Assembly (NCBI RefSeq): GCF_900109285.1
Contig: NZ_FNZQ01000005.1
Location: 1-64,000, forward strand
Direction: 5' to 3'
From: Jannaschia helgolandensis
GTDB taxonomy: Bacteria; Pseudomonadota; Alphaproteobacteria; Rhodobacterales; Rhodobacteraceae
DNA length: 64,000 nucleotides
A model generated the notes under the pieces. That model was not told where the DNA came from. It did no database searches and saw only the letters and a program-made list of their open reading frames with translations. Below are positions 23,216-49,614 of the stretch, piece after piece. The position numbers and the translations under genes were made by a program. Numbering within the stretch: the stretch's first letter is position 1; each line of letters starts with the position of its first letter.

Positions 23216-23229
23216 TTGATGCCGATCAA
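23216..23229. promoter_or_regulatory. FNR/FixK-type box upstream of the alcohol dehydrogenase gene
   Basis: TTGATGCCGATCAA matches the TTGAT-N4-ATCAA consensus exactly. Its centre is 69.5 bp before the ATG at 23292, which leaves room for a class II promoter with a short leader. Confidence 0.75.
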
Positions 23230-23291
23230 GTCCGGAACCGCATTTTCCATGCACTAGCTTGCATGACCTTACGCGATGAGGAGATTTTCCA

Positions 23292-24320
23292 ATGACGATC
23301 CCCCAGACGATGAAAGCTGCCGTGGTTACCGAACTCGGCAAACCGCTGGATATCCGCGAACATCCCGTGCCACAGATCGGAGCCGGTCAGGTGCTGGTCC
23401 GGGTACGGGCGTCCGGTGTGTGCCACACTGATCTGCATGCAGCTATGGGTGACTGGCCCGTAAAACCAACGGCACCCTTCATTCCGGGGCACGAAGGTGT
23501 AGGCGAGATCGTAGCCCTTGGTACCGGTGTTACCCATCTGAAGGAAGGCGACCGGGTCGGCGTGCCCTGGTTGCACTCAGCCTGTGGCCGGTGCGAACAT
23601 TGCACCGGAGGCTGGGAAACCCTTTGCGAAAGTCAACAGAACACCGGCTATTCCGTCGATGGAGCTTATGCCGAATACGTTGCGGCAGATGCCGATTATG
23701 TCGGCCAATTGCCCGACGGGTTCGATTTTGGTCCTGCCTCGCCTGTGCTTTGTGCGGGCGTGACCGTCTACAAGGGATTGAAAGAAACCGAAGTTCGGCC
23801 CGGTCAATGGGTCGCCATTCTGGGGATTGGCGGACTCGGTCATATGGCGGTACAATACGCCAAGGCCATGGGGATGCATGTCGTGGCAATCGACATCGCC
23901 GACAGCAAGTTGAAGCTCGCGAAATCCTTGGGCGCCGACGAGATAATCAATGCCGCGGACGTCGATCCGGTCAAGGAGGTCATTTCGCAGATCGGCGGCG
24001 TGCATGGCGCGCTCGTCACTGCCGTGAACACCAAGGCATTTGCCCAGGCGACGGGCATGCTGCGCCGTCATGGCACGATGTCACTCGTCGGCCTGCCCCC
24101 CGGCGACTTTTCCCTGCCGATCTTTGACGTCGTACTGAAGCGTCTGACGATCCGCGGCTCCATCGTCGGCACGCGCCTCGATCTGTCCGAAGCCTTGGCC
24201 CTTGCGGCGGAAGGGCAAGTGAAGACGACATTCAACTGGGCAAAACTCGACGACATCAATGAAATTTTTGATTGGATGCGCGAGGGCCGGATTGAGGGCC
24301 GGGTTGTTCTGGAGATCTAA
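23292..24320 (+). CDS. adhP: Zinc-dependent alcohol dehydrogenase
   Basis: This 342-residue medium-chain alcohol dehydrogenase has the catalytic zinc site [17 protein letters not shown] with [12 protein letters not shown], a structural zinc site ([15 protein letters not shown]), and the NAD-binding [17 protein letters not shown]. It is closest to AdhP-type ethanol-active enzymes that interconvert aldehydes and alcohols with NAD(H). The perfect FNR-type box upstream suggests low-oxygen induction, as for fermentative alcohol formation. The ATG follows GAGGAG. The gene looks intact, unlike the decayed block on its left. Confidence 0.9.
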
Positions 24321-24335
24321 ACTGAGGTCGTAACA

Positions 24336-24956
24336 TTGCTTCATGAGCAGCTTGACCCAAAATCTGACACGAACGAGATCAGCTTTGCCGCCCTTCTCGA
24401 AAGTCTGAGCAATCAAGCCCGCGCTGGCACGGAAGTAACACTTGGCAGTGCGCTCGATCAGGCAGGGGCGCGGATGCACGGTGTCGCGATCCTGCTGTTC
24501 GCCCTGCCCGACTCTATCCCTCTCCCCATCCCGAGTGCAGGGGCAATTCTTGGTGTTCCGCTTATGATAATCTCGGCTCATCTGGCTCTGTACGGAGAAC
24601 GGGGCAGTCTGCCGCGACGCGCCAGACGCATACGCCTGCCGCTGCGGATGATCGAGACCATGATACGGTTTCTCGCCGTTCCGTTACGATGGGCGGAAAG
24701 CAGGAGCTACGAGCGACTGCCGATATTCGCGAAACGCGAAAGGCTTGTCGGTGTCGTCTGCCTGCTCATGTCTTTACTTCTGGTGATGCCAATTCCGCTT
24801 ATGAACGCACCGCCGGCCATTGCGATAGCCTGCATGTCTTGGGGCCTGGTTCAGCGAGATGGCGTTTTCGTGGGGATAGGAATAGCTGTTTCCATCGGCG
24901 TTTTAGTCAGCATCCTCATTTTTGCCGATCTGATCCTGAACGCGCTTACCGCATAG
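24336..24956 (+). CDS. ExoD-family membrane protein
   Basis: This 206-residue protein has the ExoD signature (HGVAILLFALPDSIPLPIPS, GAILGVPLMIISAHLALYGE, ERLPIFAKRERLVGVVCLL) and four or five hydrophobic segments. ExoD affects exopolysaccharide production in rhizobia; its mechanism is not known. No ATG fits the frame, so a TTG at 24336 with TGAGGT upstream is the likely start. It lies 15 bp after the alcohol dehydrogenase and is probably co-transcribed. Its 3' end overlaps the convergent stress-protein remnant by 54 bp. Confidence 0.75.
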   Translation: MLHEQLDPKSDTNEISFAALLESLSNQARAGTEVTLGSALDQAGARMHGVAILLFALPDSIPLPIPSAGAILGVPLMIISAHLALYGERGSLPRRARRIRLPLRMIETMIRFLAVPLRWAESRSYERLPIFAKRERLVGVVCLLMSLLLVMPIPLMNAPPAIAIACMSWGLVQRDGVFVGIGIAVSIGVLVSILIFADLILNALTA

Positions 24957-26337: not shown

Positions 26338-26652
26338 TCATTCAGGCGCCGACTTTCCGACGATTTCAGTTAGCTTCGCAGTCTCGGCATAATATTGATT
26401 GATCGCCTTCTGGACGAACTCCGCCTGCACCTGCTGCATCTCCGGGACCGATTTACAATGAAAAAGCTTTTGCTGGGTCTGGACGTCTTCCTTCATCCGT
26501 GCGGCTGCGAATGTCGTCAGCTCAGCGCCAAAATTCGCAAGGTTCTCCAGCCATGTCATCCCGTCCCAGGGTGTATGTGAAATCGGCCGGAAGCAGGCAT
26601 CCGGGTCGCCAATATCCTGAGCCGCAGGGGGAGTGTCGCTGTTGCTGTCCAT
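26338..26652 (-). CDS. Phasin-like protein
   Basis: This is a 104-residue protein. TWLENLANFGAELTTFAAAR, MKEDVQTQQKLFHCKSVPEM and QQVQAEFVQKAINQYYAETA follow the phasin pattern of amphipathic helices and the FVQKAxxxYxxE motif. Phasins coat polyhydroxyalkanoate granules; a PHA synthase gene lies 15 kb away in the same island. The ATG at 26652 follows AAGGAGACC. It is divergent from the kinase-like/ATPase gene, and a near-consensus FNR-type box sits midway (67.5 bp from this start). Confidence 0.75.
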   Translation of the reverse strand: MDSNSDTPPAAQDIGDPDACFRPISHTPWDGMTWLENLANFGAELTTFAAARMKEDVQTQQKLFHCKSVPEMQQVQAEFVQKAINQYYAETAKLTEIVGKSAPE

Positions 26653-26712: not shown

Positions 26713-26726
26713 TTGATCTCGCTCAA
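26713..26726. promoter_or_regulatory. FNR/FixK-like box between phasin and kinase-like/ATPase genes
   Basis: TTGATCTCGCTCAA has one mismatch to TTGAT-N4-ATCAA. Its centre is 67.5 bp from the phasin start and 65.5 bp from the ATG at 26785, so it could serve both divergent genes. Confidence 0.6.
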
Positions 26727-26784: not shown

Positions 26785-28386
26785 ATGGGTAAGAACAGGC
26801 AAAAAAGTCATGTCAAGACGAGCGGGTCCGCGGCTCAGGCAGAGGTCATTCGCTTTCTCGAGAGCGGAGCGGGTTTCGGAGGCAGCACGCAAAGGATCGA
26901 CACGCATGGTGCTATCATCTTCCTGACCGGAGATCGGGCTCTAAAAATCAAACGCGCCGTGAAGTACGACTACATGGATCTGTCGACCGTCGCAAAGCGT
27001 CATACCCTGCTTGATCGCGAACTCGAACTCAACAAGAGCACTGCGCCGTCAATCTACAGGAGCGTCATGCCGATTGTCCGTCGGAAAGACGGGACGCTCG
27101 CGTTGGACGGCCCCGGAGACGTGCTTGAATGGGTACTGGTGATGAACTGTTTCCCTGCAAAGGCAGAACTGGCACACATTGCCGACGATTGCGGAATTGA
27201 CGATGCTCTGGCCCTGAAAATAGGGGCTTCGATTGCCCGATATCACACGGCATCACCGGTCCGCAATCTGGACGGCGCAGCCCTGATTGAGGAAATAATC
27301 GACGAACTCGAACGTGTATTCCGCTCCATGGGCGAAGCAATCAATGTTGAAGCCTCCGATTTCATTGCGCGAAGCCGAAAGGTTTGGTCTGACCTGTCCG
27401 TGATTTTACACCAAAGGTCCAGAAACGGGCACATTCGGCGATGTCACGGCGATCTCCATCTGCGCAATATCGTTGTGATCGGCGGCGTCCCAACGCCTTT
27501 CGATGCCCTCGAATTCGATGAACGCCTAGGCACATGCGATACCCTTTACGATCTTGCGTTTCTGCTGATGGATCTCGACCACCGCGGAATGGGTCACCCG
27601 GCAAATCTGGTGCTGAATGCCTATTTCTCCGAAGCGTGCTCGGATTTGACCGATGCCGGTCTCTCGCTTCTGCCGTTATACCTCTCGATCCGGGCTGCAA
27701 TACGCACGATGGTAGATGTTCAGACCGCTGCCGTCGCGGCAGACGGAATCGAAATGATGGGCGAGGCACGCGCCTATCTGATGCAGGCCATGGATTATCT
27801 CGATCCGAAGCCGACTGTCCTCCTGGCGATCGGCGGTTATTCCGGCACCGGCAAATCTACGGTCGCGCGTGCCATCGCGCACAAGATCGGTGCAGCACCG
27901 GGCGCGATGCACATTCGCAGCGATGTCGCTCGCAAGACGCTTCTGCATCATGATCCACTCACCCACCTCGGCGCGGAAGGCTATACGCCCGAAGTGACGG
28001 CCCGAACTTATGACGCCATACGCCATCAGGCCCGTATTGTTCTTGAACAAGGTCATTCGGTGATCCTTGACGCCGTTCATGGAAATGCTGATGCGCGCCG
28101 GGCCGCCGAAGATATCGCGACAGATGCCGGATGCGATTTCGTCGGAATCTGGCTGGAATCGAAAACGGCTACACGGCTGGCGCGAATCTCAACGCGCGGA
28201 CCGGACGCGTCCGACGCGGATTCAACCGTTGTGATACGACAGGCCGGGGCGGATCCGGGCGCGATGCAATGGCATCGCATCGACACAGATCGATCCCTGG
28301 AGGAAGCCCTGTCAGCCGTTTCAATGACCCTGAATCCGCATAAGATAACTGATAAACAAACCCTTGGTGAATCTGATGTGGGGTAA
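26785..28386 (+). CDS. Bifunctional aminoglycoside-phosphotransferase-like/P-loop ATPase protein
   Basis: This 533-residue fusion has two parts. Residues ~20-345 resemble the APH/kinase fold (ALKIKRAVKYDYMDLST with the ATP Lys, RRCHGDLHLRNIVVIGG with the catalytic HGDLHxxN, FDALEFDERLGTCDTLYDL). Residues ~345-520 are an AAA_33-type P-loop domain (LLAIGGYSGTGKSTVARAIA, MHIRSDVARKTL). The architecture recurs in proteobacteria next to stress genes; the substrate is unknown and antibiotic resistance should not be assumed. Start and FNR-like box are 65.5 bp apart. The stop overlaps the start of the protease gene by 11 bp. Confidence 0.82.
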   Translation: MGKNRQKSHVKTSGSAAQAEVIRFLESGAGFGGSTQRIDTHGAIIFLTGDRALKIKRAVKYDYMDLSTVAKRHTLLDRELELNKSTAPSIYRSVMPIVRRKDGTLALDGPGDVLEWVLVMNCFPAKAELAHIADDCGIDDALALKIGASIARYHTASPVRNLDGAALIEEIIDELERVFRSMGEAINVEASDFIARSRKVWSDLSVILHQRSRNGHIRRCHGDLHLRNIVVIGGVPTPFDALEFDERLGTCDTLYDLAFLLMDLDHRGMGHPANLVLNAYFSEACSDLTDAGLSLLPLYLSIRAAIRTMVDVQTAAVAADGIEMMGEARAYLMQAMDYLDPKPTVLLAIGGYSGTGKSTVARAIAHKIGAAPGAMHIRSDVARKTLLHHDPLTHLGAEGYTPEVTARTYDAIRHQARIVLEQGHSVILDAVHGNADARRAAEDIATDAGCDFVGIWLESKTATRLARISTRGPDASDADSTVVIRQAGADPGAMQWHRIDTDRSLEEALSAVSMTLNPHKITDKQTLGESDVG

Positions 28387-29539
28387 TGCCATAAGGATTG
28401 CACGGATCCATGGTTTCGAGATCAAGGTCGATGCAAGTTGGCTTCTGATCGCCGCGCTGATCGTCTGGAGTCTTGCTACCGCCTACTTTCCGGTCGAATT
28501 CCCGGATGCCCGGACTCCGGCGCTTCTTGTCATGGCCGTGGCGGCGATGCTGGGACTTTTCGGGTCATTGATCGTGCACGAATTGGCGCATGCCATCGTC
28601 GCGCGACGCTTTGGCCTTCGCATTTCAGGCATCACCCTGTTTCTTTTCGGAGGTGTCGCAGAACTCCAGTCGGAGCCGGTGAGCGGAGCGACCGAATTCT
28701 GGATCGCCATCGCCGGGCCGTTTGCCAGTTTCTGCCTCGCACTCGGATTCTGGTTCAGCGCTCTGGTCTCAGACATCATCGGGCTGCCGGCCGCTGCGCT
28801 CTCGATCTTCGGCTACCTGGCCGTAATCAACCTTGTCCTTGCCCTGTTCAATCTTCTGCCTGCGTTTCCGATGGATGGGGGTCGGGTGCTGCGCGCCTGG
28901 CTCTGGACGCGATCGGGCGATCTGGTGATGTCCACCAGACATGCAGTTACCGTTTCGAACGTGATCGCCTATGGGGTGATAGCGCTGGGTCTTTACGCCG
29001 TTTTCTCCGGTGCATTGGCTGCAGGGCTCTGGCCGATCCTGATCGGACTGTTCCTGTTGGCGACATCGCGCGCGTCCCTTGCCCGGCTGGAGACGGAGGT
29101 TGCGTTCGACGGGCGGACTGTCGCGACCTTCATGACGCGCGATCCATGGACGGCACGCGTGGATCAATCGCTGTCGGACCTGGTGAATAATGTGTTCCTG
29201 GAACACGCCATCACATTCGCACCCGTTTTGGAGAACGGGACCCTGCTGGGGTATGTCGATACCCAGATTGTCCGCAAGATCGACCGCGAACACTGGACGA
29301 CAGTGATGGTTGAAGATGTGATCGAGAACGTGAATAACGATAATTCTGTTTTCTGTGACATGACTGGCCTCGACCTTATGGCGCGGATCATGAAAACAGG
29401 TCGGAGAAAATTCCTTGTTGTCGATGCAGAAAGGCTGGCCGGTGTGATCACTCTCACAGATGTTTTAGCGGTCATTAACGTATCGCGAGAGGTTGGGCCT
29501 GCGCCCCACCAATCGTATAGTCGAACTGCCCCGGAATGA
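28376..29539 (+). CDS. Site-2 protease family (M50) metalloprotease with CBS domains
   Basis: This 387-residue membrane protein has about six TM segments. The zinc site is LIVHELAHAIVARRFGL (HExxH) with NLLPAFPMDGGRVLRAW providing the Asp, and there is a C-terminal CBS pair (VATFMTRDPWTARVDQSLSD; MARIMKTGRRKFLVVDAERL). Such enzymes cleave substrates within the membrane; CBS domains usually sense adenosine nucleotides. It overlaps the upstream kinase-like gene and is probably co-transcribed. I start at the ATG at 28376; a GTG at 28364 is in frame. Confidence 0.87.
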   Translation: MWGNAIRIARIHGFEIKVDASWLLIAALIVWSLATAYFPVEFPDARTPALLVMAVAAMLGLFGSLIVHELAHAIVARRFGLRISGITLFLFGGVAELQSEPVSGATEFWIAIAGPFASFCLALGFWFSALVSDIIGLPAAALSIFGYLAVINLVLALFNLLPAFPMDGGRVLRAWLWTRSGDLVMSTRHAVTVSNVIAYGVIALGLYAVFSGALAAGLWPILIGLFLLATSRASLARLETEVAFDGRTVATFMTRDPWTARVDQSLSDLVNNVFLEHAITFAPVLENGTLLGYVDTQIVRKIDREHWTTVMVEDVIENVNNDNSVFCDMTGLDLMARIMKTGRRKFLVVDAERLAGVITLTDVLAVINVSREVGPAPHQSYSRTAPE

Positions 29540-29579: not shown

Positions 29580-31112
29580 ATGGATATTGCCGATGATCGC
29601 GCCGTCCTTTTCGCGATTTTCGATGCCGCGGTCGATGCGATCCTCGTGTCGGACCATGACGGCACCATATTGCGCGTCAACAAGGCAACCGCCCTGCTCT
29701 TCGGCAGGTCCGTAGACGATCTCATGGGACAAAACGTCCGCATTCTGATGCCTGACGACATGGCAGTACGTCACGACGGATTCCTGCACCATCATCTCGA
29801 GACGGGCGAGAAGCGCATCATAGGGATCGGGCGAGACGTCGAGGGTCTGCGCGCAAACGGAACCGTCTTTCCACTGCATCTATCGGTCGGCCGCGCGGAC
29901 ATCGACGGCGAAGTCCTGTTTGTAGCGATTTTACATGACCGATCACATCGGCAAGCCGCCGAAGAGGCTGCGGCCCGATCTCAACGAATGGATGCGATCG
30001 GACAGATGACCGGAGGCATCGCCCACGACTTCAACAATTTGCTTACGGTGGTTGTCGGCAATCTGGAACTCTTGGAGATGTCCGGGCCTGCCGCACAAAG
30101 CCGTGCGTTGATTTCCGACGCGCTGGAGGCCGCGGAACTGGGGGCAGACCTCACCTCCCGGCTTATGGCTTTCGCCCGCAAAAGCAGCCTGAAGTCCGAG
30201 GTCATCGTCCTGAACGATCTGGTCGAACAATCCCTGGCCATGTTGAATCGAACCATCGGCGCACACATTTCGATCGACGCTGTTTTTGCCGAAAACGCCT
30301 GGCCTACGCGTGCGGATGCGACCCAACTTCAGACGGCCGTCCTTAATCTTGCGCTCAATGCACAGGACGCCATGCCCGGCGGTGGGAAAATCCTTGTCGA
30401 GACGCGCAATGTCGAACTGGACGATCGCTACATCGCGCAGGAGATCGGGGTCGAACCCGGAAAATACGTCCGGCTTTCAGTCAGCGATACGGGTGAAGGA
30501 ATGTCGGCCGAAACGCGCAACCGGGCGATGGAGCCATTCTATACGACAAAGCCGGTTGGCCAGGGCACTGGGCTTGGACTTTCAATGGTCTATGGCTTCA
30601 TCAAACAGTCGGAAGGTCACATCGCCATCTACAGCGAGATCGGAGAAGGAACGACAATCAGCCTCTATTTCCCTGCGATGGTGGATGAAACAGAGACCGG
30701 GAACGCCGTCGAGGAAAACCAGGATGGGCTATCGCGCTTTGGCGCGGAGAGGCTTGTTCTCGTGGTCGAGGACGATCCCCGCGTGATGCGACTGTCGCAG
30801 ACCCGTCTGATGGCCTTCGGATTTCGGTGCATTACCGCAACGACCGGCGATGCTGCATGGAGCATCCTGAAAGACCGAGACGATATCTCCGTCGTGTTCA
30901 CAGACCTGGTCATGCCCGGCAGGATGTCGGGTCACGATCTTGCCCGGAAGATCGCCGAAGACAAGCCCGGAGTGCGCGTTCTTATGACCTCCGGCTTCTC
31001 CGAAAGCGTCCTGCGCGGCGGCAGGATAGAGGCTGAATTCGCGATTTTGCGCAAACCTTACCGGCAAGCCGATCTGGCGCTCGCCCTTCAGACCGTGCTC
31101 GAAGACCGGTAA
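29580..31112 (+). CDS. FixL-like PAS hybrid histidine kinase
   Basis: This 510-residue soluble hybrid kinase has a PAS domain (1-125), a HisKA domain with His149 in GGIAHDFNNLLTVVVGN, HATPase (DTGEGMSAETRNRAMEPFYT, GQGTGLGLSMVYGFI) and a C-terminal receiver (LVLVVEDDPRVMRL, Asp in VFTDLVMPG). The PAS region NVRILMPDDMAVRHDGFLHH then ETGEKRIIGIGRDVEG closely follows FixL around its heme ligand, and His65 aligns with that ligand. Heme binding and O2 sensing are therefore likely but inferred. There is no TM segment, which is known for some FixL proteins. It ends 25 bp inside the convergent regulator gene. Confidence 0.88.
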   Translation: MDIADDRAVLFAIFDAAVDAILVSDHDGTILRVNKATALLFGRSVDDLMGQNVRILMPDDMAVRHDGFLHHHLETGEKRIIGIGRDVEGLRANGTVFPLHLSVGRADIDGEVLFVAILHDRSHRQAAEEAAARSQRMDAIGQMTGGIAHDFNNLLTVVVGNLELLEMSGPAAQSRALISDALEAAELGADLTSRLMAFARKSSLKSEVIVLNDLVEQSLAMLNRTIGAHISIDAVFAENAWPTRADATQLQTAVLNLALNAQDAMPGGGKILVETRNVELDDRYIAQEIGVEPGKYVRLSVSDTGEGMSAETRNRAMEPFYTTKPVGQGTGLGLSMVYGFIKQSEGHIAIYSEIGEGTTISLYFPAMVDETETGNAVEENQDGLSRFGAERLVLVVEDDPRVMRLSQTRLMAFGFRCITATTGDAAWSILKDRDDISVVFTDLVMPGRMSGHDLARKIAEDKPGVRVLMTSGFSESVLRGGRIEAEFAILRKPYRQADLALALQTVLEDR

Positions 31113-31846
31113 TCCTGTTCGACTGCTATTTCGGTCAACATGTATCCAATGCCCCGGACTGTCTTTATCAGCGTCGGACGAGAGGGATCACGCTCGATCT
31201 TCTTGCGAAGGCGAGCCACCTGATTGTCGATCGTGCGGTCCAGAGGCGCCCATTCCGTCCCATCGATAAGATCCATCAGGCGATCGCGCGACAGGGGGCG
31301 CTTGGCATTGGCCACGAAGGCCGCCAGAAGTTTGAAGTCGGCTGTCGTCAGATTGCAGTCTTTACCATCTCGGTCGGTCAGCTGCATTCGATTAATATCA
31401 AGCTTTAACCCATCAAGATCGTGCAGCAGGTCTGTTGGCGGACTTGCGTCAACGGGTTCCGCGCGGCTTGCACCCCGCATCTTACTCCGACGCAATACGG
31501 CGTGCACACGGGCAAGAACCTCGCGTACGTGAAAGGGTTTCGTCAGATAATCGTCGGCGCCGAGTTCAAGACCAACCACGCGATCGATCACATCGTCCTT
31601 TCCGGTCACCATGATGATCGGCACATCATGGGTGCGGCGAATGTCCCGCGCGATATCCAGTCCGTCTTCGGTTCCCAAATTCAGATCCAGGGTCACAAGA
31701 TCGGGGGGGGCATCCGAAAATGCCTCCCGCACACCGTTGCCGTCTGATGCTTCTTCCACGACGTATCCGGCCCCTTCCAGACAGCGTCTAAGGAGTGTGC
31801 GAATTTTCTGATCGTCTTCAACGACGAGAATGGTCTTGTCGGCCAT
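31088..31846 (-). CDS. OmpR-family response regulator
   Basis: This 252-residue regulator has a receiver (ILVVEDDQKIRTLL, Asp54 in LVTLDLNLGTEDG, TKPF Lys) and a winged helix (TTADFKLLAAFVANAKRPLS, RTIDNQVARLRKKIERDPSR, TVRGIGYML). The ATG at 31846 was chosen over the open frame to 32002 because MADKTILVVEDD is the standard start. It is convergent with the hybrid kinase and divergent from the Crp/Fnr gene. Whether it is the kinase's partner is not shown; an OmpR-type rather than FixJ-type output would be unusual for FixL. Confidence 0.88.
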   Translation of the reverse strand: MADKTILVVEDDQKIRTLLRRCLEGAGYVVEEASDGNGVREAFSDAPPDLVTLDLNLGTEDGLDIARDIRRTHDVPIIMVTGKDDVIDRVVGLELGADDYLTKPFHVREVLARVHAVLRRSKMRGASRAEPVDASPPTDLLHDLDGLKLDINRMQLTDRDGKDCNLTTADFKLLAAFVANAKRPLSRDRLMDLIDGTEWAPLDRTIDNQVARLRKKIERDPSRPTLIKTVRGIGYMLTEIAVEQDYRSSSTV

Positions 31847-32017: not shown

Positions 32018-32698
32018 ATGTACGTAACACTTTCAGCCGAACCGATGTCTTTCCACACGCCATCGGTTATTCAACCGCCTTGCACGCAATCGAAGCCGCT
32101 TGTGCAACGGCAATTCAAGTCCGGTGCATATCTTTATCACGAAGGCGATGACGCCACCAATCTTTACGAGGTCGTGTCGGGTGTCCTTCGCCTGACCCGT
32201 GTCCTTGAAAACGGCAAACGGCAAGTCATCGCGTTCGGACTGCCTGGCGATATCGTCGGCTTCCCGAACGGGACACGACACCACACCGATTGCGATGTGC
32301 TCTCCTCCGCCGAGATCGTCATCTACAAGCGCCGCGTTTTCGAAGCGGGCGAAAGCGATCCGGAAACGCATCAGCGCCTTCTGCGCGCCGCGCTCCGCGA
32401 GATCAGCGCGATGCAGGACCACGTCATGATGCTCGCACGCAAATCGGCGATGGAGAAGATCGCATCGTTCCTTCTTGTCCTGTCGCAGCGGACGGGCGCT
32501 CCCATCGGCAACTATGCGACGTTCTCCCTGCCGATGAGCCGTGCAGACATCGCGGATTTCCTTGGCCTGACGATCGAAACCGTCAGCCGTACGTTTACCA
32601 TATTGCGCAAGTCGAAGACGATCGCCCTCGGCACGCCGCAGACGGTTCTTGTCCTCGACCTGGATGCCCTCATCGACGCATCTCAGGCCGACACCTGA
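32018..32698 (+). CDS. Crp/Fnr-family transcriptional regulator (FixK-like)
   Basis: This 226-residue regulator has a cNMP-type beta-barrel (FKSGAYLYHEGDDATNLYEV, GFPNGTRHH) and a C-terminal HTH (MSRADIADFLGLTIETVSRT). The recognition helix ETVSRTFTIL keeps the E-x-x-S-R residues that read TTGAT in FNR/FixK proteins. Only two Cys are present (PPCTQ, TDCDV), so the four-Cys [4Fe-4S] ligand set of FNR/FnrL is absent; it is more FixK-like and oxygen-blind itself. It sits amid eight TTGAT-N4-ATCAA-like sites and is the natural candidate to bind them. The ATG at 32018 lies close after GGAGAGCG. Confidence 0.88.
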   Translation: MYVTLSAEPMSFHTPSVIQPPCTQSKPLVQRQFKSGAYLYHEGDDATNLYEVVSGVLRLTRVLENGKRQVIAFGLPGDIVGFPNGTRHHTDCDVLSSAEIVIYKRRVFEAGESDPETHQRLLRAALREISAMQDHVMMLARKSAMEKIASFLLVLSQRTGAPIGNYATFSLPMSRADIADFLGLTIETVSRTFTILRKSKTIALGTPQTVLVLDLDALIDASQADT

Positions 32699-33134: not shown

Positions 33135-33146
33135 CGTCGCATCCTT

Positions 33147-33575: not shown

Positions 33576-33579
33576 GGCT

Positions 33580-34779: not shown

Positions 34780-34839
34780 CACATCTCTCCTCGGACCGAT
34801 TTGTCCAGGGAAGGATGCGCACCGAAACACGCAAGCCGG

Positions 34840-40298: not shown

Positions 40299-41220
40299 AT
40301 GGATATCAGGATCCTGACGCCCCGCCTGTCTGTCTGGTCGACACGTTAGGCCGAAACGGGGTGACGTCGAATTATCGCTATGACCTGGCACCCTATACAT
40401 GGGAGCTGGTGTGCGGGCTGATCGTGGAAGGGCCGTTTTTACCCAACCCCCCATGCCGATCAAATGTGCGGGTGCGCCGCATAAGGCAATGTACCTGTCA
40501 GGCGAAGCGTGGCAGCGGCGGTGCGTCCTGGGTCGTATCGACATCCATTTCGCCACTGCCGGTCCCGTCCTCTTTGGGGTGAAGGATTATATCCCCGCAC
40601 TGATGGAGTACGTCGACCGCTATGGCGTGTCGCTTGACTTCCATCATAATCTCGTTGCTGTCGACGGTCCGGCGAAAGTCGCCACCTTTGAGGTAAAACG
40701 CCCCGATGCAGCGTTGAAAACGGTCGAAATGCCCTTCGACATGCTGCACGTCTGCCCACCACAGACCGCACCCGACTTCATCAGGGTTTCACCCCTAGCC
40801 GATGCCGACGGATGGGTGGACGTCGACCAGGCGACGTTGCGGCACAAGACCTTCTACAACATCTGGTCGCTGGGTGACGTCATGAACGCGCCGAACGCGA
40901 AGACTGCCGCCGCTGCGCGGGTTCAGGCCCCGGTGGTCGCGGCAAATGTTTCCGCCGACATGGATGACCACGCGCCCACAGCACAATACAATGGCTACGG
41001 CGCCTGCCCGCTGACCGTGGAACGGGGCAAGATCGTGCTGGCCGAGTTCGGTTATGGCGGGATGCTTCTGCCGACCCTGCCGAAGGCGCTCATCGACGGA
41101 ACCCGGCCAAGCCGCGCAGCATGGTTTCTGAAGGAGAAAATCCTGCCGCCGCTCTATTGGCAAGGAATGCTGAAGGGCCGTGAATGGATGGTGCATCCCG
41201 AAACTATCGAGCCTGACTGA
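40299..41220 (+). pseudogene. Phosphatase-like/sulfide:quinone oxidoreductase-like fusion, decayed
   Basis: The ATG at 40299 opens MDIRILTPRLSV, the start of the TIGR01244-type phosphatase domain found fused to an FAD oxidoreductase. After 16 codons it stops. Downstream GVTSNYRYDLAPYTWELV occurs in one frame and FTQPPMPIKCAGAPHKAMYL, VLFGVKDYIPALMEYVDRYG, MLHVCPPQTAPDFIRV and YGACPLTVERGKIVLAEFGY in another, matching the C-terminal half of SQR-like proteins. About 250 residues between the pieces are missing and there is a frameshift near 40420. It is not functional. Confidence 0.8.
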
Positions 41221-41477: not shown

Positions 41478-41491
41478 TTGATCGCTGTCAA
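41478..41491. promoter_or_regulatory. FNR/FixK-like box upstream of phaC
   Basis: TTGATCGCTGTCAA has one mismatch to consensus. Its centre is 70.5 bp before the ATG at 41555. The spacing matches the boxes of adhP, the phasin-like gene and the polymer-forming-like gene. Confidence 0.65.
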
Positions 41492-41554: not shown

Positions 41555-43363
41555 ATGACCTCTGCCGTAATTCCCCACAAGTCCGCGACCGCTCCGGCTC
41601 GTTTGCCCGTTCCCCTGCCCCTTCCCAGCACTGCACCGGCCAAGGCCGCTCACCCCCATGCGGTTCTCGATCGTGCATCACGGGCTGTGCTGGCAAGGTT
41701 GACCGGCGGCGTATCTCCTTTCTCGATCCAGTCGGTCTGGCAGGGCTGGGCGCTGAATCTCGCCCGGTCGCCCGGTCGCCAACTGGAGCTTGTGGAGCGG
41801 GCGCAGGTGAACGCCGGAAAGGTGGGGGTTCTTGCGCTGTCGCATGCCCTGGGTCGGGAGGCCGAAGCACCGTTCAGGCCCCGGTCGTACGACCACCGCT
41901 TCGCGCATGCCTCCTGGGACATGCCGCTGTTCGCACTCTGGAAGCAGGCGTTTCTTGCAACGCAGGACTGGTGGGAAGCCGCGACGGACAACATGCCCGG
42001 ACTGCGCCCGCAGGACGCCGACCGGGTCCAGTTCCAGGTTCGTCAGGCCCTCGATCTCGTCTCTCCGTCGAACTTTCCCTGGTTGAATCCCGAGATCATG
42101 GAGGAGACGGCAAGAACGGGCGGGCGAAACCTCATGGAAGGGACGGCGCTCATGACACAGGATCTCATCCAGACCCTTCTGCAGACAAAGCGCCCCGCCC
42201 CGGAGGGTTTTCGTATCGGCATCGATCTCGCCTGCACGCCGGTCGAGGTCATTTTTCGCAACGAGATGTTCGAGCTGATCCAATACGCGCCCCAGACCAA
42301 AACGGTGCGCCCCGAACCGATCCTTTTCGTTCCGGCCTGGATCATGAAGTATTACATACTCGACCTGTCGCAGCAAAACTCCATGGTCCGCTATTTCGTG
42401 CGGCAAGGATTCACGGTCTTCATGATTTCATGGCGCAATCCGGGGCCCGAACACGCTGATTGGTCGCTGGAGGATTATCGCACGAACGGCATCATGGCCG
42501 CGCTCGATGTGATCGGGGCCGTCGTGCCTGACGTGAAGATTCACGCCAACGGTTATTGCCTGGGTGGCACCCTCCTCGCGATCGCCGCCGCGACGATGGC
42601 ACGAGACGGCGATGATCGCCTGGCAACGATTACCCTGATGGCAGCACAGGTAGATTTCGCCGAGGCCGGCGAACTGCTGCTGTTCGTCGACGAGAACCAG
42701 GTCGCCTTCGTAGAGGACTTCATGTGGGATCAGGGCTATCTCGACCGCCCGCAGATGACCCGCACCTTCGCCTCCATCCGGGCCGAGGATCTGATCTATA
42801 CGCGTGCGGTCAACCGCTACTTTCTGGGCAAACCGGACTTGCCGACGGATCTGGGCGTCTGGAACGGCGATACGACACGGATGCCGGCAAGGATGCATTC
42901 CGAATACCTGCGCGGACTGTTTCTCGAGAACCGGCTGACGGCAGGCCGGTTTGCAGTGAACGGTCGCGTTATCGCGCTCAAGGACATCACAACGCCCATG
43001 TTCGTGGTCGGAACCGAGACAGACCACATCGCGCCCTGGCGGTCGGTCTACAAGATGCGCCTGTTTAGCGATTGTGATTTGACCTTCGCCCTGACCAGCA
43101 GCGGTCACAACGGCGGCATTCTGAGCGAGCCGGGCCATATCGGCCGGCACTACCGGATCGGACGGCGCGCGCATGGCGATCTCTACCAGGACCCCGACAC
43201 ATGGTTTGAAAACCACGACAGCATCGAGGGGTCGTGGTGGGAAGAATTGTCAGACTGGCTTCTGGCGGCATCGGGTCCGGCTGTTCCGGCGACGTCTCGG
43301 CCAGCAGTCCGGCGGTCCCCCGACAATGCGACAAATGCACCGGGCCGTTACGTGTTCGACTAG
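41555..43363 (+). CDS. phaC: Class I poly(3-hydroxyalkanoate) synthase
   Basis: This 602-residue enzyme polymerises hydroxyacyl-CoA to PHA on granules. The alpha/beta-hydrolase core has ANGYCLGGTLLA with the nucleophile Cys in the lipase-box position, TETDHIAPWRSVYK with the Asp and TSSGHNGGILSEPG with the His. The PhaC N-terminal domain is present (WDMPLFALWKQAFLATQDWW). I start at the ATG at 41555 (AAGGGGTG upstream), not the GTG at 41504, because the FNR-like box would then sit at the usual distance and the extra 17 residues are not family-like. A phasin-like gene with a similar box lies 15 kb to the left. Confidence 0.9.
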   Translation: MTSAVIPHKSATAPARLPVPLPLPSTAPAKAAHPHAVLDRASRAVLARLTGGVSPFSIQSVWQGWALNLARSPGRQLELVERAQVNAGKVGVLALSHALGREAEAPFRPRSYDHRFAHASWDMPLFALWKQAFLATQDWWEAATDNMPGLRPQDADRVQFQVRQALDLVSPSNFPWLNPEIMEETARTGGRNLMEGTALMTQDLIQTLLQTKRPAPEGFRIGIDLACTPVEVIFRNEMFELIQYAPQTKTVRPEPILFVPAWIMKYYILDLSQQNSMVRYFVRQGFTVFMISWRNPGPEHADWSLEDYRTNGIMAALDVIGAVVPDVKIHANGYCLGGTLLAIAAATMARDGDDRLATITLMAAQVDFAEAGELLLFVDENQVAFVEDFMWDQGYLDRPQMTRTFASIRAEDLIYTRAVNRYFLGKPDLPTDLGVWNGDTTRMPARMHSEYLRGLFLENRLTAGRFAVNGRVIALKDITTPMFVVGTETDHIAPWRSVYKMRLFSDCDLTFALTSSGHNGGILSEPGHIGRHYRIGRRAHGDLYQDPDTWFENHDSIEGSWWEELSDWLLAASGPAVPATSRPAVRRSPDNATNAPGRYVFD

Positions 43364-43495: not shown

Positions 43496-43509
43496 GGCCC
43501 TTGGTATAC

Positions 43510-46299
43510 CTATTTTGCCATCGCCTCTGAATCCGCCTCCACTTCTGCATCCGCCTCTTCCTCGGGTGGGGCGGGGTGCGGTGCCGCGCCGCTTTTCTCG
43601 AGCCGCACCTTGTCCGCATCGTCATCCCAAAGAGCGCGCACCTCGTCGCCGTCCTCGACCGCTCCACTGAGCATTTCGCGCGCCAGCACCGTCTCAAGCT
43701 CGGACCGGATCAGACGCCGCAACTCGCGGGCGCCGAACTCGGGCGCATAGCCTTCGTCGGACAGGTGATCGATCAGACTGGCATCCGGGATAAGCGTCAC
43801 ACCCTGCCCTGCGGCTGTCGCAGCCACGCGGGCCAGTTGCATCTCGACGATCTGGCGGATCTCGGAACGGTCGAGCGCGTGAAACACGATCACCTCGTCG
43901 ATCCGGTTGATGAACTCGGGCCTGAAATGGCTCCGCAGAACGCCCATCAGATCGGCCTTGAGTTTCTGTGCATCCGCCTTCTCGGTGCCGCGGATTGCCA
44001 GATCGCGCTGAATCACGTCCGAGCCAAGGTTCGATGTGGCGATGATGACCGTATTCTTGAAATCGACAACGCGCCCCTTGCCATCCGTCAGGCGACCGTC
44101 ATCGAACACCTGCAACAGAATGTTGTAGACGTCGCCATGCGCCTTCTCGATTTCGTCCAGCAGAATTACGCTATGGGGTCTGCGGCGCACCTTCTCGGTC
44201 AGTTGGCCGCCTTCGTCATAACCGACATAGCCCGGCGGCGCTCCGATCAGACGAGCGACAGTGTGCCGCTGGCCGTATTCGGACATGTCGATGCGGATCA
44301 TCGCATCTTCATCTCCGAAAACCACTTCCGCGAGTGCCTTGGCCAGTTCCGTCTTGCCGACGCCCGTCGGACCGAGGAACAGAAAATTGGCGATCGGTCG
44401 ATCCCCTTCGCGCAGGCCCGCGCGGGCAAGCCGGATGGCGTCCGAGACCGCGGCGATGGCCTCGTTCTGTCCGATGACGCGCCTGTGCAGCCGGTCCTCC
44501 ATATGCAGAAGCTTCTCCTTCTCCTCGACAGTCAGTTCCGTCACCGGAATGCCGGTCAGCTTCGAGACGACCTGAGCGACATCGGCGGCGCGCACCTCGG
44601 AAGAGCCTGACGCCTGCGCGCGTTTCCACTCCTCGGTCGCCTTCTTCAGATCTGCCTCCTTTTCGGTCAGACGCGCGCCGATTTCGGCGGCTTCGTCGAA
44701 ATGCTTGCGTGCGGCGGCATAATCCTGCTCACGTTTCAGCTGCCTGACCTCGGCGTCCATTTCCTGCGCCTCGACGGGACGTGCACTCTTGGCAAGCTTC
44801 ACGCGCGCCGAGGCCTGGTCGATCAGGTCAATTGCCTTGTCGGGCAGGAACCGCGCTGTGACATAGCGGTCCGATAACTCGGTGGCCGCGATGATCGCTT
44901 CGTCCGAGATCGTGACCTTGTGATGCGCCTCGAACATGTCGCGCAGGCCACGCAGGATCATGATGGTCTGGGCTATGGTCGGCTCCTCGACATAGACCGG
45001 CTGGAAACGGCGCTCCAGCGCCGCGTCCTTTTCGATGTATTTCTGATACTCGTTGAGCGTCGTTGCCCCGATCAGGTTCAACTCGCCGCGTGCCAGCGCG
45101 GGTTTGAACACGTTGGCAATATCGAGGCCCCCCTCACCGCCGCCCTGCCCCGCACCCACGATGCTGTGGATCTCGTCGATGAAAAGAACCAGGCTTTCCT
45201 TCTGATCAAGGATTTCCTTCAGGATCTCCTGGAGCCGTTCCTCGAATTCCCCCCGGTACTTGGCCCCCGCCACCAGCGCGTTGACATTCAGTTCGACCAG
45301 CCGCTTATCGGCCAGCGCTTCGGGCACCTCGCCGGCCAGGATACGCTGCGCCAGCCCTTCGACGATCGCAGTCTTGCCGACACCCGGATCGCCGATCAGC
45401 ACAGGGTTATTCTTCTTGCGCCGCGCCAGAACCTCGATGGTGGTCTCGATCTCACGCGCGCGCCCGAAGACGGGGTCCAGTTTGTTCTCGGCCGCCAGTT
45501 TCGTCAGATCGCGCGAATATTTATCGAGGTTGGGCGTATTGCTCGGCGCATCGACGCGTCCCCCCTCGGCACCCCGGCCGACGACCTTCGTGACTTTTTG
45601 GCGGATTGCCTGGGACGACAGGCCATAGCGGCGCAGGATATCGGCGGCCATGCCCTCCCCTTCTTCGGCCAATCCGATCAGCAGGTGTTCGGGACCGACA
45701 TAGGAATGACCCAGATCCGAAGACGCCTGTAAGGCGCGCGCCATGGCGTCCTTCACGCGGGGTGCGACGCCGATCTGCGTCGTCTCCGAGACATCCTCTG
45801 CCTTGCCGCGCGGGGCCGCGTCTTCAAGTTGCTGCCGCAGATCGGTCGAGGAAACCTTGAACTGGTCAAGTATCGTCGCGACAACCTCGCTTCCGGTCAG
45901 CGCCAGCAACAGGTGTTCGGTATCGACCTCCCTGCGCCCGAATTCTGTCGCGGTGCGGGCGGCATCCTGCAACAGCTTCTCGGCCTGGGAACTCAGTCGT
46001 TCCGTCAGGGCGCCGCCATGCCGCTGGCCAGCCTGCATCGTATCGGCCTCACCGGCTGACCGTTCGGTCCCGGCCCCTCTGTATGTCTGGAACAACCCGT
46101 CACCGATGAAATCGTCGAAAAGGCTGCCGCGCCGCCCAAACAGCGATTCAAGCGGCGAACTGGACTGCTGCTGCCGTGCCGCTAGACGTCGGTAATCCAC
46201 ATCGCAAAGCTCTACGGTGCGCCGCAGACCGTTTTCCACTATCTGAGCGCGCAGGCTTGCAGGACGGGTGTTGCAAATGTCGCAAATACCATTCGCCAT
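43510..46299 (-). CDS. ClpG/ClpK-like AAA+ disaggregase
   Basis: This 929-residue Hsp100 protein has an N-terminal Cys motif (MANGICDICNTRPASL ... ELCDVDY), then SPLESLFGRRGSLFDD, a Clp_N domain, AAA-1 (GDPGVGKTAIVEG, KYRGEFEERLQEIL, LVLFIDEIHS), a short coiled M-domain, and AAA-2 (LFLGPTGVGKTELA, PPGYVGYDEGGQLT, VILLDEIEKAH). No IGF/IGL loop is visible in the NLGSDVIQRDLAIRGTEKAD region, so ClpP need not be its partner. The N-terminal Cys segment, lost loop and length fit the ClpG/ClpK stand-alone disaggregases that give heat tolerance. The ATG at 46299 follows AGGAGAG. An FNR-type box lies 107 bp upstream. Confidence 0.82.
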   Translation of the reverse strand: MANGICDICNTRPASLRAQIVENGLRRTVELCDVDYRRLAARQQQSSSPLESLFGRRGSLFDDFIGDGLFQTYRGAGTERSAGEADTMQAGQRHGGALTERLSSQAEKLLQDAARTATEFGRREVDTEHLLLALTGSEVVATILDQFKVSSTDLRQQLEDAAPRGKAEDVSETTQIGVAPRVKDAMARALQASSDLGHSYVGPEHLLIGLAEEGEGMAADILRRYGLSSQAIRQKVTKVVGRGAEGGRVDAPSNTPNLDKYSRDLTKLAAENKLDPVFGRAREIETTIEVLARRKKNNPVLIGDPGVGKTAIVEGLAQRILAGEVPEALADKRLVELNVNALVAGAKYRGEFEERLQEILKEILDQKESLVLFIDEIHSIVGAGQGGGEGGLDIANVFKPALARGELNLIGATTLNEYQKYIEKDAALERRFQPVYVEEPTIAQTIMILRGLRDMFEAHHKVTISDEAIIAATELSDRYVTARFLPDKAIDLIDQASARVKLAKSARPVEAQEMDAEVRQLKREQDYAAARKHFDEAAEIGARLTEKEADLKKATEEWKRAQASGSSEVRAADVAQVVSKLTGIPVTELTVEEKEKLLHMEDRLHRRVIGQNEAIAAVSDAIRLARAGLREGDRPIANFLFLGPTGVGKTELAKALAEVVFGDEDAMIRIDMSEYGQRHTVARLIGAPPGYVGYDEGGQLTEKVRRRPHSVILLDEIEKAHGDVYNILLQVFDDGRLTDGKGRVVDFKNTVIIATSNLGSDVIQRDLAIRGTEKADAQKLKADLMGVLRSHFRPEFINRIDEVIVFHALDRSEIRQIVEMQLARVAATAAGQGVTLIPDASLIDHLSDEGYAPEFGARELRRLIRSELETVLAREMLSGAVEDGDEVRALWDDDADKVRLEKSGAAPHPAPPEEEADAEVEADSEAMAK

Positions 46300-46399: not shown

Positions 46400-46413
46400 T
46401 TGATTGATATCAA
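46400..46413. promoter_or_regulatory. FNR/FixK-type box upstream of the clp gene
   Basis: TTGATTGATATCAA is an exact TTGAT-N4-ATCAA match, centred 107.5 bp before the clp start on the minus strand. A second exact box follows 140 bp to the right for the divergent gene. Confidence 0.7.
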
Positions 46414-46539: not shown

Positions 46540-46553
46540 TTGATCCCGATCAA
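46540..46553. promoter_or_regulatory. FNR/FixK-type box upstream of the stress-protein gene at 46647
   Basis: TTGATCCCGATCAA is an exact match, centred 100.5 bp before the ATG at 46647. Confidence 0.75.
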
Positions 46554-46646
46554 CCCGCCGCCCGCCATCTCATGGCAGGACTGTCCCAGACGACAGCCGC
46601 GACGTTCGCCAAGAGGGTACGGAAACCGCCCGCACGAAAGGTCATC

Positions 46647-47501
46647 ATGAAAAACGCAAGCCTTCTCATCCTGGTCTCCGGTTCTGCAAAGGCCGAAGAT
46701 CTCGATCCGATGCTGCAATCCGCCGACGCGGAGCGGATGCACCTGTCGTTTCTGGTCCTTGGGGGCCTGCCCCGCACTCCGATCTATGCCTACGGAACGG
46801 AAGCCTATGGCATTCCCATGATCCCGGACATCTGGCAGGAGGAAATCGAAACGGCGACCGCTGGGCTGACCGAGACCGCCAAGATGATCGAAGCGCGTCT
46901 CGACGCTTCCGGAGCGACCGGCGACGTCGACACTCTCGCCTGCGATATTGCCGCCCTGCCGGCCATCGTCGGCCAGCGGGCGGCAACCTGCGATGCCGTC
47001 GTGATATCGAACGACCTGCGGGGCAACGACTCCCTGTTTCGCAACGCCGTCCAGGGCGTCCTCTTTCAATCCCCGTCCGGTGTCATCCTCAATGCGACCC
47101 GCGCCGCTTCCGCCCTCCATCCCACCCGCATCTTCATCGCATGGGACACCGGCCTTCCGGCAGCGCGCGCCGTCCATGCCGCCCTGCCCCTGCTGAAGGA
47201 AGCGTCTCATGTGACGATCGCGGTCTTCGATCCCGTCACGTCACAGGACCGCTACGGAGAAAACCCCGGTTCGGATGTCGCACGCTGGCTGAGCCATCAC
47301 GGATGTCATGTCGACCTTCAGCAATATCCGAGTGGCGGAGAAGAGATCGGAACCTGCATCCAGAAGCGCGCTACCGAGACGGGGGCCGATCTGATCGTGA
47401 TGGGAGCCTATGGCCACTCCCGCATGCGACAGGCCGTCTTCGGAGGGACCACAAAGTCGATGGTCGAGCAGACGGACAGGCCTGTCATGCTCGCGCATTG
47501 A
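46647..47501 (+). CDS. Universal stress protein, tandem domains
   Basis: This is a 284-residue protein. The first domain is divergent (MKNASLLILVSGSAKAEDLD). The second is classical UspA (TRIFIAWDTGLPAARAVHAA and LIVMGAYGHSRMRQAVFGGT with the G-x2-G nucleotide motif). The start at 46647 follows GAAAGG; the frame is open upstream to 46404 but that part lacks similarity and contains the FNR-type box. It is divergent from the clp gene, and each has its own exact FNR-type box. It is the third tandem Usp in the island. The gene is intact. Confidence 0.87.
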   Translation: MKNASLLILVSGSAKAEDLDPMLQSADAERMHLSFLVLGGLPRTPIYAYGTEAYGIPMIPDIWQEEIETATAGLTETAKMIEARLDASGATGDVDTLACDIAALPAIVGQRAATCDAVVISNDLRGNDSLFRNAVQGVLFQSPSGVILNATRAASALHPTRIFIAWDTGLPAARAVHAALPLLKEASHVTIAVFDPVTSQDRYGENPGSDVARWLSHHGCHVDLQQYPSGGEEIGTCIQKRATETGADLIVMGAYGHSRMRQAVFGGTTKSMVEQTDRPVMLAH

Positions 47502-47659
47502 TCTGCCCGGGACGCGCCATTTTCTTCGGTCTACCGACTTGGCCATCCTGCCAACGATTTCGGCCTTCTTGCCAAGGATAACATGCAGATGGCGACGTGG
47601 CGCGGCCGACCGGAGGAAAATTATCCCGACACTCCGGCCAGACGTGCCGGGGCGCAAAT

Positions 47660-49441
47660 TCAGGGTGTTCCTGAAATTCCATCCCGCAGGCCCTGATCCG
47701 CGGTTTGTCGCAGGTCCGTCTGTCCGGCCACCTGCGGATTTATCCTCAGGGCGCGGAGCGCGTTGAGGATGACCGCAATGTCGATAACCTCCTGCAACAG
47801 TGCGCCCTGGACCGGGGTGATATACCCCAGCGCTGCAACGACCGATGCGGCCGCGCCGCGGGCCCCCATGGCCACGCCGACGTCTGCCGACGCCAGCGCA
47901 GGCGCATCGTTCACGCCGTCGCCCACCATCATCACCGTCCCGTGGCTCCGCTCGGAAAGAACCAGGCTTACCTTCTGATCGGGTGTCAGGTCGGCGTGAA
48001 CCCCGTCCAGCCCCAGAGTGCCGGAAACCGCATCCGCGACGACGCGACGATCGCCTGTCGCCAGTATGATCCGCTGGATTCCGGCTTTCCTCAGGCCCGC
48101 AAGAAGCGTGGCGGTGCCGGATCGCAATGAATCTGCCAGAACGAAATGACCGGCCAGCACCCCATCGACTCCCAGGGCGACAACCACGGAACCCGGATCA
48201 CCGGAAACCCGGCTGACGTCGTTGACGACATTGCCCGAGGTGCGGGCAGCGACGAAGCCGGGGCTCCCGACCAGAACGGCCTGACCGTTGATAGTGCCCG
48301 CAACGCCCTCGCCTGCGGTTTCCACGACATCCGCAGGGACCGGCAGAACAAGGCCGCGGTCCCGAGCTACGGCGACGATGGCCTGTGCAATGGGATGTTT
48401 CGACGCCTGATCCATGGCCGCGGCAAGAAACAGCATGTCATCGCCGGACAGGTTGCCATGCGACTGTGTGGACACGATCCGGGGTTGCCCGTCGGTCAGC
48501 GTGCCGGTTTTGTCCAGGATCAGCGTGCGGATGCCTGCCAGCGCCTCAAGCGGCGCAGCCCCTTTGACCAGCACGCCGAAATGCGTGGCCCGCGACAGCC
48601 CGGCCACAAGCGCTACCGGCACCGCCAGGATCAGCGGACACGGAGTCGCCACGACCAGCACGGCGACCGCCCTGACCGGATCGCCCGTGAACCACCAGGC
48701 CGCCGTCGCCAGCGCTACGGTCACGGCCAGGAAAAGCAGCGAATAGCGATCAGCCATACGCGCCATCGGTGCCTTGGACTTCTGTGCCGCCTCGACCAGC
48801 CTGACAATGCCGGCATAGGTGCTGTCCGCCGCGCGGCGGCCTGCGCGCAGATCGAACGCTTCGCCCGCATTCATCGCGCCGCTCATCACGTCGTGTCCCT
48901 GCGCCAGACGAATGGGCATCGCCTCGCCCGTCAGTGCAGACTGATCGACCAGCGCCGCGTCACTTGCCACCGTGCCGTCGACGGGTGCCACTTCGCCCCG
49001 GCGGACCAACAGCAGATCGCCTGGTTCGATACAATCAAGGGAAACATCCTCCAATGTGCCGTCCGCATATCGCGTGGCGCTTCTGGGGACCCGCGACAAC
49101 AAGGCGCTCATCTCGCGTCGCGCGCGGCCTGCGGCGAAGCTTTCCAGATAGGTTCCGCCCGAATACATCACCGCCACGACGGCTGCGGCCAGCGTTTCGC
49201 CGAACACGAGCGCGGCCGACATCGACAGGGCCGCGACGATATCGAGACCGACATCTCCGTTTCGAAGACTGCGCACGATCTCGACCAGGAGCGCGGCAAG
49301 GATCGGCACGACACCGACCGACCACACAAGATCCGCTGACCCGCCACGGCCCATGGCAAGAAGCGCAAGCCCTGTCAGCAGGCCCAGAAGCCCGATGACC
49401 AGAAGTGCCAGATCCCGGCGTGTCGATAAGAATGCCGCCAT
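47660..49441 (-). CDS. Heavy-metal-type P1B ATPase with TPC motif
   Basis: This 593-residue pump has about eight TM segments, A-domain ALTGEAMPIRLAQG, a TM metal motif ATPCPLILAVPVALVAGL (Thr-Pro-Cys instead of Cys-Pro-Cys), the phosphorylation site ILDKTGTLTDGQPRI, the SKHPIAQAI His-Pro dipeptide, and MMVGDGVNDAPALASADVGV. No N-terminal CxxC metal domain is present. TPC-type pumps are a separate P1B subgroup for which Ni/Fe or other divalent metals have been proposed; I do not assign the metal. The ATG at 49441 follows GGAAGGA; other in-frame ATGs (49480, 49495, 49531) exist. An exact FNR-type box lies 166.5 bp upstream. Confidence 0.85.
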   Translation of the reverse strand: MAAFLSTRRDLALLVIGLLGLLTGLALLAMGRGGSADLVWSVGVVPILAALLVEIVRSLRNGDVGLDIVAALSMSAALVFGETLAAAVVAVMYSGGTYLESFAAGRARREMSALLSRVPRSATRYADGTLEDVSLDCIEPGDLLLVRRGEVAPVDGTVASDAALVDQSALTGEAMPIRLAQGHDVMSGAMNAGEAFDLRAGRRAADSTYAGIVRLVEAAQKSKAPMARMADRYSLLFLAVTVALATAAWWFTGDPVRAVAVLVVATPCPLILAVPVALVAGLSRATHFGVLVKGAAPLEALAGIRTLILDKTGTLTDGQPRIVSTQSHGNLSGDDMLFLAAAMDQASKHPIAQAIVAVARDRGLVLPVPADVVETAGEGVAGTINGQAVLVGSPGFVAARTSGNVVNDVSRVSGDPGSVVVALGVDGVLAGHFVLADSLRSGTATLLAGLRKAGIQRIILATGDRRVVADAVSGTLGLDGVHADLTPDQKVSLVLSERSHGTVMMVGDGVNDAPALASADVGVAMGARGAAASVVAALGYITPVQGALLQEVIDIAVILNALRALRINPQVAGQTDLRQTADQGLRDGISGTP

Positions 49442-49600
49442 CCGTGTATTCCTTCCAGATCGGTTTGTGCGCCGCTTCATCTTCGAACGTCGCATCTGCG
49501 ATGCCCCGGTTTCGGTGCGAAGGCCGGCCATGCGAAATCCAGGTGCACCGCTGGCAGGATGACGTCGCAGGCTAAGGTCCTGAATTGCAGCCATTGCCGG

Positions 49601-49614
49601 TTGATCGAAATCAA
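49601..49614. promoter_or_regulatory. FNR/FixK-type box upstream of the P1B ATPase gene
   Basis: TTGATCGAAATCAA is an exact match, centred 166.5 bp before the preferred ATG at 49441 and 76.5 bp before the ATG at 49531. Confidence 0.7.

Follow-up and report, generated by a model that had tools for sequence, protein, structure and literature searches.

In the hFixL-FxkR-FixK(f) cascade of Rhizobium etli and Rhizobium leguminosarum/johnstonii, a hybrid kinase with a heme-type PAS domain (hFixL) and an OmpR-type response regulator (FxkR) are combined with a K-box ahead of fixK, a cysteine-free regulator of the Crp/Fnr family, and targets carrying TTGAT-N4-ATCAA boxes. FxkR was reportedly described in a 2012 paper. 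Each of these elements has a counterpart in an island of about 26 to 30 kb in Jannaschia helgolandensis (Rhodobacteraceae), located in the 64,000-nucleotide stretch analyzed here (positions 1 to 64,000 of contig NZ_FNZQ01000005.1, assembly GCF_900109285.1; "the window"). We consider it likely that the island holds a self-contained circuit of this type that responds to low oxygen.

Most descriptions of the circuit so far come from root-nodule bacteria and related organisms. As an analogy only, the DosS/DosT-DosR dormancy regulon of mycobacteria also places universal stress protein (Usp), CBS-domain, and P-type ATPase genes under a heme kinase in hypoxia, but it uses another regulator family and has no FixK step. 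An excerpt of PMC2908626 calls FixK "generally restricted to" Rhizobiales, and one cited paper, also in excerpt, dates hFixL-FxkR-FixKf to the ancestor of the Rhizobiaceae. Among the matches listed from titles and abstracts of open-licence literature, none described an hFixL-FxkR-FixK cascade in Rhodobacterales. The FnrL regulon of that order shares the box of the island and, according to an excerpt of PMC5398030, counts usp genes among its targets; FnrL, however, is its own oxygen sensor, by means of a cysteine-bound cluster, whereas the island FixK lacks the corresponding motif.

Predicted sensor, relay, and regulator of the island

The hFixL-like gene (29580..31112, + strand) encodes a hybrid kinase in which Pfam recognizes a heme-type PAS domain, HisKA/HATPase domains, and a receiver. 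FixL PAS structures are the best matches of its PAS domain in the PDB, and of 33 aligned proteins of relatives, one of them truncated in the alignment, 32 keep the heme His and all 33 the receiver Asp. The first-pass annotation had placed a FixL-like kinase next to the Crp/Fnr gene; the kinase is there, as a hybrid FixL with a receiver, but a divergent gene for an OmpR-type FxkR lies between the two. That regulator (31109..31846, − strand) carries an OmpR-type C-terminal domain (Trans_reg_C in Pfam) rather than the FixJ-type (LuxR/NarL-like) domain of FixLJ-FixK systems, and R. johnstonii FxkR9 adjoins the window FxkR clade with support of 98/88. The tree included one other window regulator and 30 outgroup loci, hand-picked from 80 distant OmpR relatives that a scan of genome contigs for FxkR had returned.

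The Crp/Fnr gene (32018..32698, + strand) is supported by an MYVT start common to relatives, and its product has the ETVSR recognition helix that had been noted in the middle of the island. The N-terminal cysteine motif of FnrL/FnrN was not found in this protein, which thus combines an FNR-type helix with the absence of Fe-S cysteines, as FixK-type proteins do. In the tree, the island FixK clade (99/98) stands apart from the Fnr proteins (100/99) and from rhizobial FixKf (100/100).

Just upstream of this gene lies a K-box, GATACA-N4-GATACA (31926-31941, + strand), which a third, imperfect repeat extends to 31951. It is the sole GWTACA-N4-GWTACA match in the genome, and it is a variant of the published FxkR sites, which excerpts of PMC4999443 and PMC7888657 give as GTTACA-N4-GTTACA. 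In calibration, the same script returned GTTACAAACTGTTACA upstream of R. johnstonii fixK9a and GTTACACACTGTTACA upstream of R. etli fixKf; it also detected a site with one mismatch between R. johnstonii fixK9b and fxkR9. The GWTACAN4GWTACA pattern by itself was discarded as a marker of FxkR; because it occurs in 177 of 390 genomes, it marks FxkR by position only. Judged from these features, the island encodes a complete predicted hFixL-FxkR-FixK oxygen cascade beside likely targets.

FNR-type boxes concentrate in the island

The first-pass annotation had listed eight boxes, and all were recovered. The five exact sites lie in the adhP promoter, formerly also the promoter of arc genes (23216..23229); between a polymer-forming-like operon and a Usp gene (34840..34853); on the Clp and Usp sides, respectively, of a Clp/Usp intergenic region (46400..46413 and 46540..46553); and ahead of a P-type ATPase gene (49601..49614). 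The three one-mismatch sites separate the phasin gene from the kinase-like/M50-CBS/hFixL gene run (26713..26726), precede a metallo-beta-lactamase (MBL)-fold gene (39164..39177), and lie in the phaC promoter (41478..41491). Three further one-mismatch sites, at 11322, 31388, and 56157, had not been listed; the one at 31388 was set aside as an fxkR/fixK control site, since it falls inside the fxkR frame.

The five exact sites compare with 0.06 expected from shuffled windows, and the 11 sites with at most one mismatch compare with 1.42. Across the 3.56-Mb genome there are eight exact sites and none for a reversed control pattern (114 versus 4 with at most one mismatch). Five of the eight exact sites fall in the island, so boxes are commoner here than in the rest of the genome. 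The other three comprise two within predicted coding frames and one (L003) immediately ahead of such a frame. The reported spacing of 65 to 71 bp from box to start codon was reproduced when measured from the box center for adhP (69.5 bp), phasin (67.5 bp), the kinase-like ATPase (65.5 bp), the polymer-forming-like gene (67.5 bp), and phaC (70.5 bp); box 26713 is thus almost equally far from the phasin and kinase-like genes. Spacings are longer for the Usp gene at 46647 (100.5 bp), Clp (107.5 bp), the P-type ATPase gene starting at 49480 (127.5 bp), and the MBL-fold gene (236.5 bp).

A chance cluster of boxes could draw on sites such as 31388, which falls in a coding frame, 39164, which lies 236.5 bp from its gene, and 49601, which has no counterpart ahead of the same gene in seven relatives; boxes 39164 and 49601 are indeed placed less well or lack a counterpart. 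For the set as a whole, we regard chance as exceedingly improbable: it is contradicted by the shuffled and reversed-pattern controls, by permuted palindromes, and by the conservation of boxes ahead of the same genes in relatives. We infer from sequence that the genes behind the boxes form a regulon and that low oxygen is its signal.

Boxes and the K-box recur in relatives

A FixK homologue (E < 1e-50) is encoded in 57 of 390 genomes, J. helgolandensis included, and two weaker homologues, in G080 and G380, join the same clade. Islands were examined in 31 of the 56 FixK-positive relatives, taken mostly best-scoring first (G221 was omitted, its contig resembling that of G239). hFixL, FxkR, and FixK occur together in 29 of the 31 islands. 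hFixL was not found in the island stretch of G372, FxkR is cut short in G133, and on a 49-kb Tropicibacter plasmid an hFixL-like gene is about 17 kb away, across the origin. With the J. helgolandensis island counted, the K-box is exact in 25 of 32 islands and present within one mismatch in 29; the 1.2 Mb searched contained one other exact site.

The 31 islands of relatives contain 50 exact boxes, compared with 0 to 2 for each of 19 letter-permuted palindromes. The first reading had suggested a check of orthologous islands, and there boxes recur ahead of the same genes. With at most one mismatch allowed, and with matches beginning past 35% of the query dropped, they precede the polymer-forming-like gene (14/16 relatives), hFixL (15/28), M50-CBS (8/16), phasin (8/18), and the MBL-fold gene (6/10); the counts are 2/5 for adhP, 5/22 for Usp35, 5/18 for Usp46, and 2/31 for FixK, and no box was found ahead of arcB (0/5) or sqr (0/4). 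Among 62 promoter-near boxes of the relatives, a TANNNT hexamer peaks at 22 and 23 bases past the box (16% and 8%; other offsets, 0 to 5%), the spacing expected of an activator centered near −41.5. In the window, phaC, phasin, and the kinase-like gene fit this −10-like spacing by eye.

Boxes may also bear on expression of the sensor gene. In the window, the kinase-like gene overlaps M50-CBS and hFixL starts about 40 bp further on, so box 26713 probably feeds hFixL. A box lies ahead of hFixL, or of the M50-CBS or kinase-like gene leading into it, in 20 of 28 relatives (controls, 0 to 3 of 28), and the 350 bp upstream of hFixL held no exact K-box in any of 29 genomes, J. helgolandensis included. 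In R. johnstonii, by contrast, the fixK9a-hfixL9 operon is K-box driven, according to an excerpt of PMC7888657. Since a box rather than a K-box precedes the hFixL run, FixK probably closes the loop in this island and FxkR does so in R. johnstonii, which suggests that feedback is wired differently from that in Rhizobium.

FixK and FnrL as candidate binders of the boxes

The J. helgolandensis genome also encodes FnrL (L012), which has the cysteine motif CSSCPIRHRAVC and shares the ETVSR helix with the island FixK. On sequence alone, that helix makes both proteins candidate binders of the boxes. FnrL, a cysteine-motif oxygen sensor, might therefore be the main protein on the boxes, with the local FixK overlapping or minor; Dinoroseobacter FnrL directly activates usp genes (PMC5398030, in excerpt), and relatives without FixK have boxes too. 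We nevertheless hold this to be unlikely, since the boxes cluster around fixK and not elsewhere in the genome, and since boxes are in excess where FixK is present within genera: FixK-positive genomes average 4.2 more exact boxes than their FixK-less genus mates, a difference reached in 0 of 20,000 permutations. That test covered the 14 genera with both states (43 FixK-positive and 71 FixK-negative genomes), treated genomes within a genus as exchangeable, and counted G065 and G080 as FixK negative, though the tree puts G080 in the FixK clade.

The polymer-forming-like gene argues in the same direction. It was found (E < 1e-70) in 35 of 57 FixK-positive genomes (the 56 relatives with E < 1e-50 plus G380, at 3e-46) versus 1 of 69 hand-picked FixK-negative genomes, and the 4.1-kb locus of that single genome contains no box. 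Distant matches, at roughly 30% identity, turned up in another five of these 69 genomes. Together, the box excess and this distribution favor FixK as the binder, and joint use of the boxes by FixK and FnrL is likely.

Gene content and decay

From left to right, the island comprises arc remnants, a gene for an adhP-like zinc alcohol dehydrogenase (23292..24320, +), ExoD, a Usp gene, a phasin-like gene (26338..26652, −), a kinase-like gene with an AAA_33 ATPase domain (26785..28386, +), an M50 peptidase gene with CBS domains (28376..29539, +), and the genes for the hybrid FixL, the OmpR-type regulator, and FixK. After FixK follow DUF3775, DUF2267, and polymer-forming-like genes (32709..34782, −; the last without a Pfam match), a Usp gene (35172..36011, +), a P-type cation ATPase gene (36206..38938, +), the MBL-fold gene (39407..40288, +), a sulfide:quinone-reductase-like remnant, and phaC, for polyhydroxybutyrate (PHB) synthase (41555..43363, +). 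The order ends with genes for a Clp ATPase (43510..46299, −), a Usp (46647..47501, +), and a P-type ATPase (47660..49480, −), followed by tRNA-Arg and tRNA-Gly (49917..50286, +). Near the left end of the window, a RES-domain protein adjoins a small frame that we take to be helix-turn-helix-like (6596-7671), and the two may be a toxin-antitoxin pair.

Two parts of the island are decayed. The arginine-deiminase operon remnants (19490..23204, −), which adjoin an exact box, comprise parts of arginine deiminase and ornithine transcarbamylase recognized by Pfam, a DcuC-family carrier, and what is presumably a carbamate kinase-like gene. Intact versions in relatives show that arcA and the carbamate-kinase-like gene are split over several frames and that N-termini are missing from arcB (the first 87 residues) and the carrier (about 100 to 140). 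The arm left of 23216 is probably nonfunctional, because its genes are broken or without starts. The remnant that we take to be sulfide:quinone-reductase-like (40334..41220, +) has no Pfam match, lies directly past the intact MBL-fold gene, and lacks 262 N-terminal residues. Sequencing error is an unlikely cause of the broken frames, since N-terminal parts are missing too.

Compared with the rhizobial cascade, the island has a different gene order, places its FixK outside the FixKf branch, carries GATACA rather than GTTACA in its K-box, puts the hFixL run under a FixK-type box, and contains no cbb3 oxidase. It shares with R. johnstonii plasmid pRL9 the presence of adhP, usp, and an APH/ATP-binding gene near fxkR9. 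The latter gene (L192, 22746-24389), annotated as APH/ATP-binding and about 10 kb from fxkR9, resembles the kinase-like gene of the window, and its start lies 50.5 bp downstream of a box with one mismatch.

Borders and possible transfer

In a comparison of about 17 kb adjoining pgi in nine same-genus genomes, DNA similarity to the window was confined to 50495-52617 (thioesterase, pgi), beyond the island and to the right of the two tRNA genes. The exception, seen in five of the nine, was a 48- to 49-base match within the 3′ portion of tRNA-Gly. A tRNA-Gly gene sits at the same place in seven of the nine; the window copy matches theirs at 49 to 51 of 74 bases, while they match the G058 copy at 69 to 72 of 74, so the window tRNA-Gly may be part of the foreign segment. 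A sharp junction inside tRNA-Gly was considered and dropped, as the window copy differs from those of relatives along its whole length; no second copy of the tRNA-Gly halves was found in the window. On the left, the window begins at the contig end, with an IS110-type transposase at 1941-3023; the ten left-end proteins that were scanned included no integrase.

The J. helgolandensis FixK groups with those of G388, G042, G105, and Sulfitobacter (95/95), and three same-genus FixK proteins form a separate branch. This grouping, and same-genus similarity that begins only beyond the island, suggests acquisition by horizontal transfer. Related trios or parts of them sit on named plasmids. On a Sulfitobacter plasmid the trio adjoins ccoNOQP and ccoGHIS, and on a Terrarubrum plasmid (Hyphomicrobiales; L249, 5166-8762) hFixL, FxkR, and FixK have the order and strands of the window beside ccoNOQP. 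A plasmid location of the window itself was set aside, as the contig continues into the pgi and thioesterase genes common to same-genus genomes. The ccoN gene of J. helgolandensis is on contig C8, with a one-mismatch box about 2.4 kb upstream.

The neighboring tRNA-Asn block of relatives was also found on C8, where other DNA follows it and the tRNA-Asn end is partially repeated. There (L230, 2167-15672), about 13 kb of other DNA past tRNA-Asn closes with a 98-base stretch resembling the tRNA-Asn end and flank of relatives, which looks like a second insertion.

More tentatively, the island could be a transferable cassette in which sensor, relay, regulator, and effectors travel together across Rhodobacterales, with the sensor-kinase genes under the box of the terminal regulator and with the shared hFixL-FxkR pair acting on a FixK of separate origin from rhizobial FixKf.

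Proposed circuit and its significance

The protein families, the gene order, the enrichment and conservation of boxes and K-box, the kinship of FxkR to its rhizobial counterpart, and the −10-like spacing are read directly from the sequences. In the circuit that we propose, falling oxygen would lead hFixL, through its heme-PAS domain, to signal to FxkR by phosphotransfer; FxkR would bind the K-box at 31926 and switch on fixK. FixK, which has no oxygen-sensing cluster, would then be the main protein on the TTGAT-N4-ATCAA boxes, in preference to FnrL, and would activate the genes for alcohol dehydrogenase, PHB synthase, phasin, Usps, Clp ATPase, and P-type ATPases and the polymer-forming-like operon. 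It would also activate the kinase-like/M50-CBS/hFixL run, closing a positive loop. The predicted role is in low-oxygen survival.

Several observations weigh against such a circuit. G042 has FixK, a box, and targets, with neither hFixL nor FxkR in its stretch, and the K-box was not found within one mismatch in G042, G316, or G180, or in Terrarubrum. Ten of the 31 islands of relatives have no exact box. A box precedes phaC in only 1 of 12 relatives, and none was found ahead of p1b (the P-type ATPase gene at 47660; 0/7), caATP (0/15), or arcA (0/5). FixK-positive genomes carry fewer boxes in genera g24 and g83, the island FixK does not fall inside the rhizobial FixKf branch, and FnrL, with its identical helix, could bind the boxes.

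The first-pass annotation had proposed one coordinated island rather than scattered genes. The concentration of boxes, their recurrence in relatives, and the island's own FixK without a cysteine cluster speak for that view. It had missed that FxkR and the K-box link the kinase to the Crp/Fnr regulator, and it is weakened by the helix shared with FnrL, by the decay of the arc and quinone-reductase-like genes, and by the weaker boxes at 39164 and 49601.

The trio and its K-box recur in many related genomes, including some named Rhodobacterales, and the islands that carry them also hold genes for stress, storage, and fermentation. This alters the picture of where the circuit may have evolved and of the purpose that it may have evolved to serve. 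The arrangement predicts a second oxygen threshold beside FnrL, with targets that should be predictable from sequence.

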